Positions 20,347-26,626 of a stretch of 32,510 nt of DNA are shown piece after piece. Below the pieces are notes generated by a model. It was not told the origin of the DNA, ran no database searches, and was given only the letters and a program-made list of their open reading frames with translations. The stretch is taken from assembly GCA_003354045.1 (NCBI GenBank), contig PIVZ01000005.1:1-32510 (forward strand). The letters run 5' to 3'. The stretch's first letter is position 1; the number at the start of each line of letters is the position of its first letter. Both the position numbers and the translations under genes were made by a program. Origin of the DNA: a bacterium (GTDB lineage Bacteria; Desulfobacterota; Binatia; UBA1149; CAITLU01).

Positions 20347-20436
20347 ATGAGAATGTTCCCGTCATATCGACGACTGATTTTTCTGTCACTGGCAGTCATC
20401 GGCTGCATTGCCACTGCCGGATGTCCCGGCTGTTAG
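20347..20436 (+). CDS. Cys-containing 29-aa mini-ORF, possible lipopeptide
   Basis: ATG...TAG translates to MRMFPSYRRLIFLSLAVIGCIATAGCPGC; hydrophobic segment with lipobox-like VIGC; 23 nt before the next CDS. Confidence 0.45.
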   Translation: MRMFPSYRRLIFLSLAVIGCIATAGCPGC

Positions 20437-20458
20437 CCCGTTTCTCCAGAGGAGACAG

Positions 20459-21559
20459 ATGAAGATCACCACGATACATCGATGGATGAGCGGGCTCGCG
20501 ATAGCGGCCCTGCTCATATGCCCTCACTTTGCGAATGCCGCCCAGGGAGACTGCGGACAGCCGAGCAGCACTGGCCCGAAGCCGACGACCACGGATGCGC
20601 TGAGCGTGCTCAAGTCCGCGGTAAAGGGAAGCGGGTGCGACGAGTGTGTCTGTGACGTAAACGGCTCCGGCGGAGCCACGCCGATCACTGCAACCGACGC
20701 ATTGGTCACTTTGGGGGTCGCGGTCGGTAAGGATCTACAATTGCAGTGTCCGCCCTGCGGAACGACAACGACGAGTAGCAGCACTACCACATGCTACTGG
20801 TTCTGCTCGACGAGCACTTCGACTACTTTGTCTTCGCCGACCACCACGACGACGACCACGACGCTGGGCGGACAACCGGCCCTCGCGGCCGGCGACTTTC
20901 CCGGCGTGACGCCGTGCTCGGATCGAGACACGCTGCCGGACGATCCGACTTTCCTTACCGCCATCACCAACGCCGTCGAGGCCGACAACGTGGTGAACTT
21001 CACTCAGTACGACACCGACGGGCTGCCGGAGATCTGCGGCCTGGCGGACGCCGACAACGCGCTCGATCCCGGTAACGTGCCTTGGGACCCGGCAGAGAAC
21101 AACGAAATCACGGTCTGTAACCCGTTCCCGGGCAATGTGGTCGACTTCTTCAACAACGTTCCACTCGGCCATGGACCGGACCTGTGCCAGACCGGCAACA
21201 ACACCTCCACCCTGGCGATGCCGCGAGCGGGCACCTACCGAAAGGACGCTTGCATAGAACACGGGGGCAACGCCTACCGGGTGCGCACACGTATGTCCGT
21301 GAGCGGCGCATCCGTGGATCAGATGTTTGCCAACCTCGGTATCGGCAGGTCCGACTTGAAAGCGTGCGACGGGACGACGGAGATCGCCACGCAGGCTCAA
21401 GCCAAGGCGTTCCTCACCGCAAACCCGCGCAGCTTCGACGTCGCGATCAAGTCCGCCACCTGTAACGGAGGGGTCGAGCATCTGTCGGTAACCGCAGAGA
21501 TCATCTGCGTGAACAAGCTGGCGGGACCGTGCCCACCGGCGGACATTGCCTGCTTCTGA
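20459..21559 (+). CDS. secreted protein with dockerin-like repeats, Thr/Ser-rich linker and C-terminal domain of unknown function
   Basis: Signal peptide; 'TTTDALSVLKSAVKG...CDVNGSGGATPITATDALVTLGVAVG'; linker TTTTSSSTTTCYWFCSTSTSTTLSSPTTTTTTTT; RBS aggaga. Confidence 0.72.
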   Translation: MKITTIHRWMSGLAIAALLICPHFANAAQGDCGQPSSTGPKPTTTDALSVLKSAVKGSGCDECVCDVNGSGGATPITATDALVTLGVAVGKDLQLQCPPCGTTTTSSSTTTCYWFCSTSTSTTLSSPTTTTTTTTLGGQPALAAGDFPGVTPCSDRDTLPDDPTFLTAITNAVEADNVVNFTQYDTDGLPEICGLADADNALDPGNVPWDPAENNEITVCNPFPGNVVDFFNNVPLGHGPDLCQTGNNTSTLAMPRAGTYRKDACIEHGGNAYRVRTRMSVSGASVDQMFANLGIGRSDLKACDGTTEIATQAQAKAFLTANPRSFDVAIKSATCNGGVEHLSVTAEIICVNKLAGPCPPADIACF

Positions 21560-21637: not shown

Positions 21638-22432
21638 CTACTCGCGCAGCATACCGAGCGCATCTTCGGCGGACGTGTCGTCGTGAATCATGGCGCGCAC
21701 GGCTTTTATCAAAGGCACGGGACGATCGCTTTGCCAGATGTTGCGCCCCATGACGATTCCCGCTGCTCCTCCGTCGAGGGCACCGCGGATCATCCGTAGC
21801 GTCTCCTCGTCAGTCTCGCACTTCGGACCTCCGGCTATGGCCACCGGGACCGGACAACCGCCCGTGACCTTGTCGAAGCCAGTTGCCGTGTAGTAGGTCT
21901 TGACGATATCGGCGCCGTGCTCAGCCGCGACCCGCGCGCCCAAGGCGATGAACTCAGGATCTTGCGCTTTCTCTTTGTCCTTGCCCACCCCGATCACGCC
22001 CACCAACGGCACCTCCCAGCGCCGGCAGCTTTCCGCGACCGCAGCCATCTGCTGAAGCGTCGTGTGCTCGTTGGCAGAACCGATGAATGCAGAGAAAGCC
22101 ACCGCATCGGCCGAGAGGGTCAGCAACTCCTCCACTGATGCCGTCACGCCCTCGTTGGTGATGTCGGGGCCGGCGATGGTCGCAGCGCCGCTGGCGCGCA
22201 AGATTAGGCCGGTCGAACCGCGCGGCTCGTAGGCGTGAGTGAATATCCCTTTGGTCATGAGCCAGGCGTCCGTATAGGACTCGAGCATCTCGAAAACCTT
22301 GGCAGGCTTCTCGAGCCCGGTCATCGGTCCGAGCGCCATGCCATGAGCGACGGCGACGATCAGGCCGCGGCCTGTTTCGGGGTTGAGTATCCTGGAGAGC
22401 CTGTTCTTTTTGCCTTTCATGTACGTTTCCAT
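21638..22432 (-). CDS. DhnA/DeoC-LacD type class I aldolase family protein
   Basis: 'GRGLIVAVAHGMALGPMTGLEKPAKV...LILRASGAAT...ADAVAFSAFIGS...ADIVKTYYTATGFDKVTGGCPVPVAIAGGPK...GAAGIVMGRNIWQ'; Schiff-base Lys context VKTYYT; start could be 22420 (MKGKK). Confidence 0.88.
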   Translation of the reverse strand: METYMKGKKNRLSRILNPETGRGLIVAVAHGMALGPMTGLEKPAKVFEMLESYTDAWLMTKGIFTHAYEPRGSTGLILRASGAATIAGPDITNEGVTASVEELLTLSADAVAFSAFIGSANEHTTLQQMAAVAESCRRWEVPLVGVIGVGKDKEKAQDPEFIALGARVAAEHGADIVKTYYTATGFDKVTGGCPVPVAIAGGPKCETDEETLRMIRGALDGGAAGIVMGRNIWQSDRPVPLIKAVRAMIHDDTSAEDALGMLRE

Positions 22433-22437
22433 TCGCC

Positions 22438-23466
22438 TCAGTCGAACATGATGATGGTCTTGAAGCCCGCGCCACTCTTGGTCCGCTCTACCGCTTCAAT
22501 CAAGCCTTCGAGGCCACATCGCGCCGAGATCACCTTCGCCAGCGTATCGTGGTTGTCCTTCACGAATTCGAGAGACCTCAGGAAATGCTGCAACGATGCG
22601 GCAAACGTCCCTGTCAAGACGATCTCGCCATAGTGCAGCCAGCGGGGGTCGAGACTGATCGTCTCACCCTTCGGGGTCCCGCCGAAGATGTTGAATACTC
22701 CGCCGCTGCGAACGAGAGGCAGAGATTCCTCGACAACCTTCGATAACCCGATGGCGGCGATGACCACGTCGGCTCCGACCTCGGTCAGCCTTCGCACTTG
22801 TTCCAAAACGTTTGTTTCTTGTGGATTGATAGCCTCATCGGCTCCGACTTCTCGGGCTTTGATCAGCCGGGCCTCGATGGGATCGACGGCTATCACACGT
22901 GCTCCCATCGCCTTCGACACGATGACGTGCAGCAATCCCAGCGGTCCACATCCGATGACGGCCACGTTGTTGCCGGCCGTCGTCCCGCACAGCTCCGCAG
23001 CCGACAGACAGCAGGAAACCGGCTCGATCATTGCCGCCATATCGAACGGCATGTCTCCGATGTCCACTATCCCACCGAGCTCGACGATTCGGCTCGGCAC
23101 CAGTACATACTCGGCAAATCCGCCGTCGGCGCCGTGGGCCAACCCGTACTGATCGGTGCAGAGGCTGTGCCGCCCACGGGCGCAGAAGTAGCAGCGGCCG
23201 CAAGCCGCTATCGGATAGACGGCCACGCGCTGGCCGATGGTCAGGCCGGATACGCCTTCGCCGACAGCCTCGACAGTGCCCGCGACTTCATGCCCGAGTA
23301 TCGTTGGCAAGTCTTTCGGCAGCCCGGAGCCACCGAGGATCTTGACGTCGGTAGCGCAGACCCCCGAGCCCCTGACCTTTATCAGTACCTCCCCGGTTCC
23401 GGGACTCGGGGTCGGCACGTCGGCAATGCGGATGTCATCTTTACCGTGGACAACGGCAGCTCTCAT
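22438..23466 (-). CDS. Zn-dependent MDR alcohol/threonine-dehydrogenase-like protein
   Basis: 'GVCATDVKILGG...ILGHEVAGTVEAVGEGVSGLTIGQRVAVYPIAACGRCYFCARGRHSLC...VAVIGCGPLGLLHVIVSKAMGARVIAVD'. Confidence 0.95.
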   Translation of the reverse strand: MRAAVVHGKDDIRIADVPTPSPGTGEVLIKVRGSGVCATDVKILGGSGLPKDLPTILGHEVAGTVEAVGEGVSGLTIGQRVAVYPIAACGRCYFCARGRHSLCTDQYGLAHGADGGFAEYVLVPSRIVELGGIVDIGDMPFDMAAMIEPVSCCLSAAELCGTTAGNNVAVIGCGPLGLLHVIVSKAMGARVIAVDPIEARLIKAREVGADEAINPQETNVLEQVRRLTEVGADVVIAAIGLSKVVEESLPLVRSGGVFNIFGGTPKGETISLDPRWLHYGEIVLTGTFAASLQHFLRSLEFVKDNHDTLAKVISARCGLEGLIEAVERTKSGAGFKTIIMFD

Positions 23467-24164
23467 GTCTCACCTTTACGGATCTTCCCTGCCGCGGCGC
23501 TGAATCGCTCGACAAGCGTCCGTACCTTCTCGGGGTCTTTCTTGCCTCTCGATCCTTCCACCCCGCTACAGAGATCGATCCCATGCGGGCGCACTTCGGC
23601 AAGTGCGGCGCCAACGTTGTCGGGCCCGATTCCGCCGGCAAGAAAGACCGGCACTGAAGCGGCCTTCACGATCTCGGCGGCCGCGCTCCAGTCTCCGACT
23701 TTTCCCGTTCCTCCGCGACGCAGAACTCCGTCACTCGAATCGGCGCTGTCGATGAGCAACGCATCCGCGCCGGCCGCAATGTACGCTTCGGGCAACGCCT
23801 GACCGGTAAGGGGTGGTAGATGAATGGTCTTCCAGATGCGACACGGCAATCGAGCTTTGAGATCCGCCACGAGCTCGGGGGGCTCTTCACAAAGGAGCTG
23901 GAGAGCCCACGGCTCGATCTGCCTGACGATGTCTTCGGCCACGCCTGCCTCTGGATTGCAGAGCAATACGACGACCGGTACTGCCGAGGCCGAGGCTACC
24001 TCTCGAGCGTGGGCTGGTGAAAGGCTCCTCTCCGAGAAGGGTACGTCCACTACGATGCCGCAGAAGTCGGCACCAGAAGTTCCGACGAGCTCCGCGTCTT
24101 CCCTGTTGGTCACACCGCAGATCTTGAGCTGCACGCGGATCGACACGTCACTCTTCGGCTTCAA
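23463..24164 (-). CDS. phosphoribosylanthranilate isomerase (TrpF)-like TIM barrel
   Basis: 'LKICGVTNREDAELVGTSGADFCGIVV', 'GGTGKVGDWSAA', 'VFLAGGIGPDNVGAAL', 'GIDLCSGVEGSRGKKDPEKV'; 4-nt overlap with the MDR gene. Confidence 0.9.
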   Translation of the reverse strand: MKPKSDVSIRVQLKICGVTNREDAELVGTSGADFCGIVVDVPFSERSLSPAHAREVASASAVPVVVLLCNPEAGVAEDIVRQIEPWALQLLCEEPPELVADLKARLPCRIWKTIHLPPLTGQALPEAYIAAGADALLIDSADSSDGVLRRGGTGKVGDWSAAAEIVKAASVPVFLAGGIGPDNVGAALAEVRPHGIDLCSGVEGSRGKKDPEKVRTLVERFSAAAGKIRKGET

Positions 24165-25137
24165 CGACGCGCATGCCGGTATTGTTCGCCTTGGTCAGAA
24201 AAGTTTCGCCGCCACCGTGGTCATCAATCCACTGCTTGCTCTTTTCGTGAAGCTCCGAGAGATCTTCGCCGAAAGCGAACAAGGAGGGCCCCCAACTACT
24301 CATGCCGACGCCGACACCGCCATTCTCGCGCAAGAACCGGCGGCAGTCGTGAAGCAGCTCCGTTTGCGCCCGGAGCTCGAACACCTTGAAGCCAAGCGTT
24401 TGGAAATCGTCCATGGCGCGGCCGAAGGTTTCCAGATCCTTCTCCAAGACCGCAGGCAGCATCTGCATGAGGATGATGTGACAGATGCGCTGAACCTGGT
24501 CGAGCGGGATCGGACATACGACCCTGAAGAGAGTGACCTCGCGCAGCCCACTGGCGCCCTCCCCGAGCGGCGCGGTTACCAGTATGTCCCAGTCGGGAAA
24601 GTCGTGGCGCCCGAGAATGGGTGGCGGCTCCATCCCCGCCGATGCACCTGAAGGAGAGTAGCCCTGCTTGCTGTCATCCCCGCGGCGGAATTGATGACCG
24701 CCGTCAACTATGAATCCGCCGCGCTCGATGGCCTCCACGCCGATGCCGGAAGTTCCCCCTCTGCCGACCAGCTTCGCCAGCTCTCGTGAGGTCTTCTCGA
24801 GACCGTAGAGACGACATACTGCGAAGGCTGCGCCAACAAGCGCTTGAGTCGCACTGCCGAGCCCGGCGTGCGGAAGCGGGCGCTCCGTCACATTCACCTT
24901 GACGCCGCTGAGGTCGTAGCGATCGCAGACCGCGCTGAGAGCAGCGCCTATCCGCTCAGCGAACTCCGGTTCGTCGGCGCATTCGACCTCGATACCCTGC
25001 GCCTTTACCGCCTCTACCGTCGTATGTGGGGCTTCCAAAGCCAGGCCGACGCCGCCGTCGATGCGGCCGATCTCGCCGTTGAGATCGATGAGGCCGAAGT
25101 GCAATCGTGCCGGCGTGCTCAAAACAATGCGTTTCAT
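24148..25137 (-). CDS. beta-ribofuranosylaminobenzene 5'-phosphate (beta-RFAP) synthase family / GHMP-fold protein
   Basis: 'TPARLHFGLIDLNGEIGRIDGGVGLALEAP', 'PLPHAGLGSATQALVGAAFA', 'LVGRGGTSGIGVEAIERGGFIVDGGHQF', 'PPPILGRHDFPDWDILV', 'PLDQVQRICHIILMQMLPAVLEKDLETFGRAM'; 17-nt overlap with the TrpF-like gene. Confidence 0.88.
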   Translation of the reverse strand: MKRIVLSTPARLHFGLIDLNGEIGRIDGGVGLALEAPHTTVEAVKAQGIEVECADEPEFAERIGAALSAVCDRYDLSGVKVNVTERPLPHAGLGSATQALVGAAFAVCRLYGLEKTSRELAKLVGRGGTSGIGVEAIERGGFIVDGGHQFRRGDDSKQGYSPSGASAGMEPPPILGRHDFPDWDILVTAPLGEGASGLREVTLFRVVCPIPLDQVQRICHIILMQMLPAVLEKDLETFGRAMDDFQTLGFKVFELRAQTELLHDCRRFLRENGGVGVGMSSWGPSLFAFGEDLSELHEKSKQWIDDHGGGETFLTKANNTGMRVVEAEE

Positions 25138-25276: not shown

Positions 25277-26626
25277 TTACGGGAAGATCTCACGTTCCGC
25301 AAAGACGGCCATCAAGCGCTCCAGTGCAACGCCGTAGCAGGCCAGGCGGAAGTCGCACTTGTTGTGATGCGCGAACTCTTCCATCTGCTCGTAGGCATCG
25401 TGCATGGCGCGTCTCAAGCGGTCGTCTACCTCGGAGGCGGTCCACTTCTCGCTTCGGCGGTTTTGCACCCATTCGTAGTAGCTGACGGTCACGCCCCCGG
25501 CGTTCGCGATCAAGTCCGGCAGGATCTCGATTCCCCGCTCCTGTAACACCGCCTCGCCCTCGGGAGCACACGGCCCATTGGCGCCTTCAACGAGCAAGCG
25601 GACCCTGAGGGCCTTCGCTTCCTGTTGGCCGATTTGGTTCTCCAGGGCCGCGGGCACACAGATGTCGGCATCGACGCCCCAGAAATCTTCACGGCTGATT
25701 GGCTCGCCGTTCGAATAGCCCTCGATGCTACCGTTTCCATCTACGTACTGCTGCAACCGATGTGTGTTGAAGCCTTCCGGGTTGTAGAGGTACCCGGTAT
25801 GGTCGCCGACCGCGACCAGCGACACACCGAGCTCGCTCAGCAACACTGCAACGTGCGACCCGACATTGCCGAAGCCCTGGACGATCAGCCCCTTGCCGTG
25901 CAGGTCAAAACGTTCGCGCTCGGCCCACTCGCAGATGCAATGCACGACCCCCTGCCCCGTCGCTTTGACGCGCCCGTGGGTGCCGCCGCTGGTGATGGGC
26001 TTGCCGGTGACGACACCGAGGGCCGCCTCCTTCTTGACCATGCCCACCGTGTTCATGAACGTGTCCATCGCCCATGCCATCACCTGTGCGTTGGTGCCCA
26101 TGTCAGGAGCCGCGATGTCGTAGTCGGGGCCGATGTTGGAGCCGAGTGCGTGGAAAAACTTCCTCGTGATGCGCTGCAGCTCCCCCCGCGACACATCGCG
26201 CGGGTTGAACTTGATGCCGCCTTTCGCGCCACCCAGCGGCAGGTTCATCAAGGCGCACTTGTAGGTCATCAAAGAAGCGAGCGCCTTGAGATCGTCCAAT
26301 GACGCCAACTCGTGATAGCGCATGCCGCCCTTGTAGGGACCGAGGATGTTCGAGTGCTGGATGCGATAGCCCTTGAAGAGTCGAAACTCGCCATCATCCA
26401 TACGAACCGGGAAGTTGACGATCAGCTCGTTCTTCGGCTGTCCCAGGATTGTCTCTACGTACTCGGGCAGCTCGACTATCCGGGCCGCTTGCTCCAGATA
26501 GCCCTGGATTGCACTGAAGAACGGGTACCTGTCCTCGGCCGGCCGTCTTCCCGGCAATGACGGATCCGCTTCACCAGATCTTGCGGCTGTTGCGCTCGTC
26601 TCCTGCCCGGTCGCGTCATCGCCCAT
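25277..26626 (-). CDS. Glu/Leu/Phe/Val-family dehydrogenase (glutamate dehydrogenase-like)
   Basis: 'GPYKGGMRYH...ALASLMTYKCALMNLPLGGAKGGIKFNP...PAPDMGTN'-type motifs and 'VQGFGNVGSHVAVLLSELG'. Confidence 0.95.
   Translation of the reverse strand: MGDDATGQETSATAARSGEADPSLPGRRPAEDRYPFFSAIQGYLEQAARIVELPEYVETILGQPKNELIVNFPVRMDDGEFRLFKGYRIQHSNILGPYKGGMRYHELASLDDLKALASLMTYKCALMNLPLGGAKGGIKFNPRDVSRGELQRITRKFFHALGSNIGPDYDIAAPDMGTNAQVMAWAMDTFMNTVGMVKKEAALGVVTGKPITSGGTHGRVKATGQGVVHCICEWAERERFDLHGKGLIVQGFGNVGSHVAVLLSELGVSLVAVGDHTGYLYNPEGFNTHRLQQYVDGNGSIEGYSNGEPISREDFWGVDADICVPAALENQIGQQEAKALRVRLLVEGANGPCAPEGEAVLQERGIEILPDLIANAGGVTVSYYEWVQNRRSEKWTASEVDDRLRRAMHDAYEQMEEFAHHNKCDFRLACYGVALERLMAVFAEREIFP

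Follow-up and report, generated by a model that had tools for sequence, protein, structure and literature searches.

A conserved four-gene unit with beta-RFAP synthase, TrpF-like, dehydrogenase and aldolase genes that may build and dismantle an aryl C-riboside

Introduction

The beta-RFAP synthase of methanopterin synthesis (MptG) and ForT of formycin synthesis are homologous, and both form a C-C bond from phosphoribosyl pyrophosphate (PRPP) with loss of CO2. The usual substrate of the phosphoribosylanthranilate isomerase TrpF is an N-aryl riboside phosphate, which the enzyme opens, shifting its C2' proton. LsrF, the 3-hydroxy-5-phosphonooxypentane-2,4-dione thiolase of autoinducer-2 breakdown, yields dihydroxyacetone phosphate (DHAP) and acetyl-CoA (PMC7828210). 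Relatives of these enzymes, together with a dehydrogenase, are encoded by four adjacent genes on contig PIVZ01000005.1, of which a stretch of 32,510 nt was analysed (the window; its genome is labelled G000 in comparisons). The four enzymes normally come from unrelated pathways, a pathway combining them is undescribed, and no paper combining RFAP synthase, TrpF and an aldolase was found in a search of open-licence papers. We describe the conservation of this unit and a tentative model in which its enzymes would assemble an aryl C-riboside and then take it apart.

Results

Four open reading frames on the minus strand were confirmed at positions 21638-25137, with junctions of -17, -4 and +5 nt; genes, strand and spacing all agreed with an earlier note on this DNA. 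The gene at 24148..25137 encodes a protein of 329 aa of the beta-RFAP synthase (RFAPS) family, which matched NF040726 with 360.2 bits and thus passed the equivalog cut-off of 328. It is followed by a gene for a TrpF-subfamily isomerase (23463..24164, 233 aa, TTG start), which scored 93 bits against PF00697 (cut-off 22.7) and whose relatives of solved structure include Thermotoga TrpF. The third gene (22438..23466) encodes a zinc-dependent medium-chain dehydrogenase/reductase (MDR) of 342 aa, similar to threonine and sorbitol dehydrogenases and with ADH_N and ADH_zinc_N domains (PF08240/PF00107), and the fourth (21638..22432) encodes a Schiff-base aldolase or thiolase of the DhnA/LsrF type (264 aa; DeoC/LacD match of 124 bits).

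The complete four-gene unit was present in at least six bacteria that are only distantly related, their genomes coming from six different families, namely that of the window, G285 (locus L040), G077 (L046), G126 (L045), G418 (L143) and G419 (L144). Gene order differed in G285 (TrpF-MDR-aldolase-RFAPS), and in G419 the RFAPS start sits in another reading frame, perhaps as the result of a frameshift. Only these four genes travel together, since the flanks differ around every unit and the four genes alone are shared. The survey was a sample of one phylum: an RFAPS profile search of 297 genomes gave matches above the cut-off in only five, and among 395 genomes only four held an operon-type aldolase (identity at least 60%, versus at most 47% for the rest). 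Two further operon-type aldolases were found in 277 genomes of the class to which G126 belongs, and plasmid searches yielded no additional operon. A seventh copy, in G253, consists of TrpF and MDR genes (61% and 68% identical) with an RFAPS gene upstream that carries an in-frame internal deletion, its first ~29 codons being fused to the last codons of the C-terminal tail (L050:253-399). No operon-type aldolase was found in G253, and this copy may be either decayed or misassembled through assembly collapse. Chance neighbourhood was rejected as an explanation, since the same unit recurs in five genomes besides that of the window. The earlier note had read the close spacing as the sign of a single pathway and had proposed a comparison of gene neighbourhoods; the neighbours are conserved across relatives, and the four genes very probably form one pathway.

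Genome-wide gene checks were made by profile searches. The tetrahydromethanopterin (H4MPT) gene mch was absent from G000, G077, G285, G126, G253, G041, G418 and G419, and fae was absent from the first six of these. Both genes were present in the positive controls G208 and G252, which are members of the phylum and whose RFAPS (~30% identical) are encoded in an H4MPT cluster, alongside genes resembling mtdB, FTR and DHPS. G126, G285 and G418 are 98-100% complete, and G000 is 86% complete and 7% contaminated. An H4MPT synthesis operon was rejected, as mch was missing from all the operon genomes and fae from the five of them that were checked for it, while the controls were positive. The window genome possesses a canonical trpD-C-F-B cluster on contig C620, and a second, canonical TrpF was also found in G077, G285 and G126; none was found in G253, the remaining genome covered by this check. 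A tryptophan operon was rejected as well, the canonical trp cluster lying elsewhere and the operon TrpF falling into a separate clade. These results bear out the view in the earlier note that the locus serves neither H4MPT nor tryptophan synthesis, and the second trpF for which it had proposed a search does exist.

The RFAPS proteins fell into two classes. Class A includes those of the window and of G285 and the product of a lone gene in G077, with ~70% mutual identity and ~45% identity to archaeal MptG. Class B, encoded in the operons of G077, G126, G418 and G419, is divergent (~400 aa, ~23% identity), and the two sequences tested scored 78-87 bits against NF040726. In the RFAPS tree the window protein formed a clade of its own with those of L039 (the lone G077 gene) and L040 (100/100), separate from bacterial MptG, archaeal MptG, Poribacteria and the ForT group, so that the comparison with MptG suggested in the earlier note placed it outside the bacterial enzymes. 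The TrpF tree grouped G285 with G077 and G126, and the MDR and aldolase of G285 were also nearest to theirs; its RFAPS instead grouped with the class A protein of the window, while its nearest operon kin have class B. One class has thus replaced the other inside the G285/G077/G126 lineage, and the two are interchangeable. Such a swap within the same unit is good evidence that the chemistry of the RFAPS step is what the module needs.

Class A proteins keep D19 and R26 (M. thermautotrophicus numbering), which belong to the 4-aminobenzoate pocket of RFAP synthase (PMC6787355), as well as the equivalents of ForT Thr138, Ser174, Glu211 and Lys263. At the sites of Ser21 and Gln266, the carboxylate-holding pair of ForT (PMC9832568), they have His and Glu, as does MptG. 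D19 is common to both classes, as are the counterparts of Lys263 and Glu211 in ForT; class B is without the Ser174 loop and aligns poorly near Thr138. The window protein resembles MptG in family, equivalog membership, pocket residues and predicted first reaction, but differs from it in forming a separate clade and in being encoded without pterin or C1 genes and with genes for an isomerase, a dehydrogenase and an aldolase. ForT (phmmer 4e-44 against the window protein) shares the C-C bond formation, but the Ser21/Gln266 pair is exchanged here, purine-type ring-building genes are absent, and the sugar is predicted to be opened and not kept. A ForT-like C-nucleoside cluster was rejected on the pocket residues and the absent partner genes.

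Lone class A RFAPS genes directly adjoin a thiolase gene in G077 and G041 (L039:6498-9334 and L043:1969-3405). The G077 thiolase has Cys/His/Cys motifs and a GNAT gene also adjoins, and genes for a CoA ligase, two HGD-D subunits (a 2-hydroxyacyl-CoA dehydratase-like set) and a BadF/G ATPase lie near the lone RFAPS gene. These loci possibly represent a second RFAPS-based acyl-CoA pathway. Class B RFAPS homologues also occur outside any such operon: in two genomes the gene has a histidine kinase gene on one side and a sigma-54 response regulator gene on the other (L047:7994-9151, L048:7926-9080).

The operon TrpFs formed their own clade (100/99, stem 1.12) apart from canonical TrpF. They share with it the fold family and the equivalents of Cys7, Arg36 and Asp126, which we take to be the catalytic and substrate residues of TrpF, and differ from it in an FSxRSL motif, found in all seven operon copies, and in their predicted C-linked substrate. 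The earlier note had regarded the N-terminal region of the window protein as atypical, but this was a misreading: VVDVPFSERSLS is the beta2 loop with the conserved Arg36, in the FSxRSL form of the subfamily. An orphan TrpF-like subfamily without the catalytic Cys7 (QIYSMT or QIYEVS) was also noted (L086:16062-16721, L125:7519-8241 and L126:7864-8547). On a Mesorhizobium plasmid, an orphan TrpF-like gene lies ~7 kb from a ForT-like RFAPS gene with purC- and purH-like genes, a locus that is a probable C-nucleoside cluster.

The MDR scored highest among curated models with tdh (threonine 3-dehydrogenase; 188 bits, sub-threshold) and scyllo-inosose 3-dehydrogenase (165 bits). The zinc motifs GVCATD and LGHE and the four-Cys loop were found in all seven copies, and in every copy inspected beta2 is followed by an acidic residue (VIAVDP); the enzyme looks to be of the NAD type. 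For the aldolase the best NCBIfam model was the LsrF thiolase (NF006081), with 265 bits against an equivalog cut-off of 297, and the model of ADTH synthase (AroA', MJ0400; TIGR01949) gave 210 bits against 299, so that the protein fell below both cut-offs. Its closest PDB match was LsrF (6e-57), with MJ0400 at 3e-53. The Schiff-base Lys184 is kept in the operon aldolases, and all six have Gly, as in LsrF, at the site of MJ0400 Tyr153, a residue that is presumably catalytic in class I aldolases. Elsewhere in the phylum, DhnA proteins lack this Tyr too and carry Ala in its place. Asp33, the proton acceptor in MJ0400 (PMC4162585), is kept in five of the six operon aldolases and in every other copy examined. 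In the window alone it is replaced by Ala (GCT), in an otherwise invariant DHG motif at 22340-22350, so that the MJ0400 trio Asp33/Tyr153/Lys184 reads Ala/Gly/Lys in this copy. The change could be a single-base metagenome assembly error or real. The operon enzyme thus differs from LsrF in its score, in the Asp33 lost from the window copy and in the absence of lsr genes. The aldolase tree did not separate LsrF from other DhnA proteins as nearest kin of the operon enzymes; its rooting is spoilt by a very long Rhizobium X9 branch. The residues of the last enzyme argue for a likeness to the CoA-dependent thiolase LsrF over a sugar aldol reaction, a choice on which the earlier note had not decided.

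In many genomes of the phylum an ordinary DhnA-type gene is adjoined by an MDR gene (L060-L084, e.g. L063, L064 and L078), with ~31-40% identity to an operon MDR. The pairing suggests that DhnA and MDR formed a module first, with TrpF and RFAPS joining it later.

A scan for promoters and terminators at the locus found none. The glutamate dehydrogenase gene at 25277-26626 was rejected as a fifth member, as it adjoins no other copy of the operon. The convergent neighbour on the plus strand (20408-21559) encodes a probably secreted protein in which dockerin-like CDxNGSGxxTATDAL motifs recur and a linker is rich in Thr/Ser; no Pfam match was obtained for it.

Discussion

Beyond what was observed (the conserved unit, the families, the residues and the missing H4MPT markers), we infer the order of the steps, the exact substrates and steps 2-4. 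The four enzymes would constitute a stand-alone pathway that builds an aryl C-riboside and then dismantles it. In step 1, RFAPS would join an acid of the 4-amino- or 4-hydroxybenzoate type (Ar-COOH) to PRPP, giving an aryl C-riboside 5'-phosphate, CO2 and PPi; this decarboxylative C-glycosylation is likely, because the enzyme belongs to the RFAPS family. In step 2, the para amino or hydroxyl group, the same donor that an RFAPS substrate needs, would open the furanose via a quinone-methide, and a shift of the C2' proton would then give 1-aryl-1-deoxyribulose 5-phosphate. Such a step would mirror the TrpF reaction on a C-linked substrate. On balance, we expect the TrpF-like enzyme to carry out such a ring opening and Amadori-like isomerisation. 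The MDR is predicted to act on the sugar phosphate once opened, oxidising one of its secondary alcohols; in step 3 it would use NAD to oxidise the C4 alcohol, yielding Ar-CH2-CO-CHOH-CO-CH2-OP, the aryl homologue of the LsrF substrate CH3-CO-CHOH-CO-CH2-OP. In step 4 the LsrF-like enzyme and CoA would cleave this compound to arylacetyl-CoA (Ar-CH2-CO-SCoA) and DHAP, and the aromatic acid would emerge one carbon longer and activated as a CoA ester. That the pathway is an aromatic acid homologation, turning a benzoate-type acid into arylacetyl-CoA with the PRPP ribose as two-carbon donor and DHAP returned, is possible if doubtful; we know of no biological route that homologates an aromatic acid in this way.

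The main argument for the four-step model is that the independent reactions of three families would end exactly on the substrate type known for the fourth. The lone class A RFAPS genes beside a thiolase gene, in G077 also near a CoA ligase gene, are circumstantial evidence in the same direction. Several points weigh against it. Arg36, presumably the residue that binds the anthranilate carboxylate in TrpF, is kept, though a monocarboxylic acid, once decarboxylated to its C-riboside, would have no carboxylate left. The aldolase stays below the LsrF cut-off, and the thiolase reading is not forced, because the step from the Ala of other DhnA proteins to the LsrF-like Gly is a small one. With Ala in place of an otherwise conserved Asp33, the window copy of the enzyme could be impaired or altered, or its sequence could be wrong. 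The cost in PRPP is unusual for catabolism, and no conserved gene for using the product was found among the operon neighbourhoods compared. As a whole the model is tentative, and we would lean slightly against its being right in every part; steps 3 and 4 as written are put forward with much reserve. The earlier note had proposed a C-riboside-like intermediate that is made, isomerised, oxidised and cleaved or condensed on the way to a cofactor or metabolite. The four enzymes probably do work one after another on a C-riboside, but nothing points to a cofactor as product; no ligase, transferase or transporter is conserved with the four genes.

The last enzyme might instead be a true Schiff-base aldolase that, after the same steps 1 and 2, cleaves 1-aryl-1-deoxyribulose 5-phosphate or its oxidised form between C3 and C4 by a retro-aldol reaction. 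The products would be an aryl hydroxyacetone and glycolaldehyde phosphate, and CoA would not take part. The DhnA family does contain class I aldolases, and the Schiff-base Lys and, in five of six operon copies, Asp33 would fit; the LsrF-like Gly in place of Tyr153 in all six copies makes this outcome unlikely. The oxidation itself may be questioned, as the MDR could reduce the ketose to an aryl ribitol phosphate, to which the aldolase adds or from which it removes a unit, so that the result is a new arylpolyol, either a metabolite or part of a cofactor. Reduction to an aryl ribitol phosphate is thought to occur in methanopterin synthesis, the side chain of methanopterin being an aryl deoxyribitol, and relatives of the MDR include sorbitol dehydrogenase and a ketose reductase. 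We regard this branch as distinctly unlikely, given the acidic NAD-type residue in all inspected copies, which suggests oxidation, the lack of any conserved pterin, glycosyl or ligase gene, and the absence of mch from every operon genome and of fae wherever tested.

Two further explanations concern the RFAPS step. If RFAPS made an N-phosphoribosyl arylamine, TrpF could catalyse its ordinary Amadori rearrangement and the pathway would end in an N-aryl glycine derivative; the kept Arg36 would then hold the retained carboxylate, and ForT, when given an isomeric substrate in vitro, can produce a C-N nucleotide (PMC9832568). The RFAPS pocket is nevertheless that of the C-C forming MptG, and this route appears quite improbable. 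A residual or cryptic H4MPT synthesis, in which RFAPS is a normal MptG beside which the remaining three genes lie by accident, would agree with the equivalog match. It is contradicted already by the lack of mch in operon genomes, some of them 98-100% complete, and of fae in the five operon-type genomes tested, by the RFAPS position outside bacterial MptG and by the conserved unit, and is extremely improbable.

The building and dismantling of an aryl C-riboside would be encoded compactly, by four genes that can be expressed, and the assay inputs (4-aminobenzoate, 4-hydroxybenzoate, PRPP, NAD and CoA) are commercially available. Chemically, the ring-opening isomerisation it needs is the problem that one step of methanopterin synthesis also has to solve. 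If the model is true, TrpF would have a C-linked and LsrF an aryl substrate, the pathway would be the third use of RFAP-synthase chemistry, after methanopterin and the C-nucleosides, and it would be the first case of a C-riboside serving as an intermediate to be taken apart.

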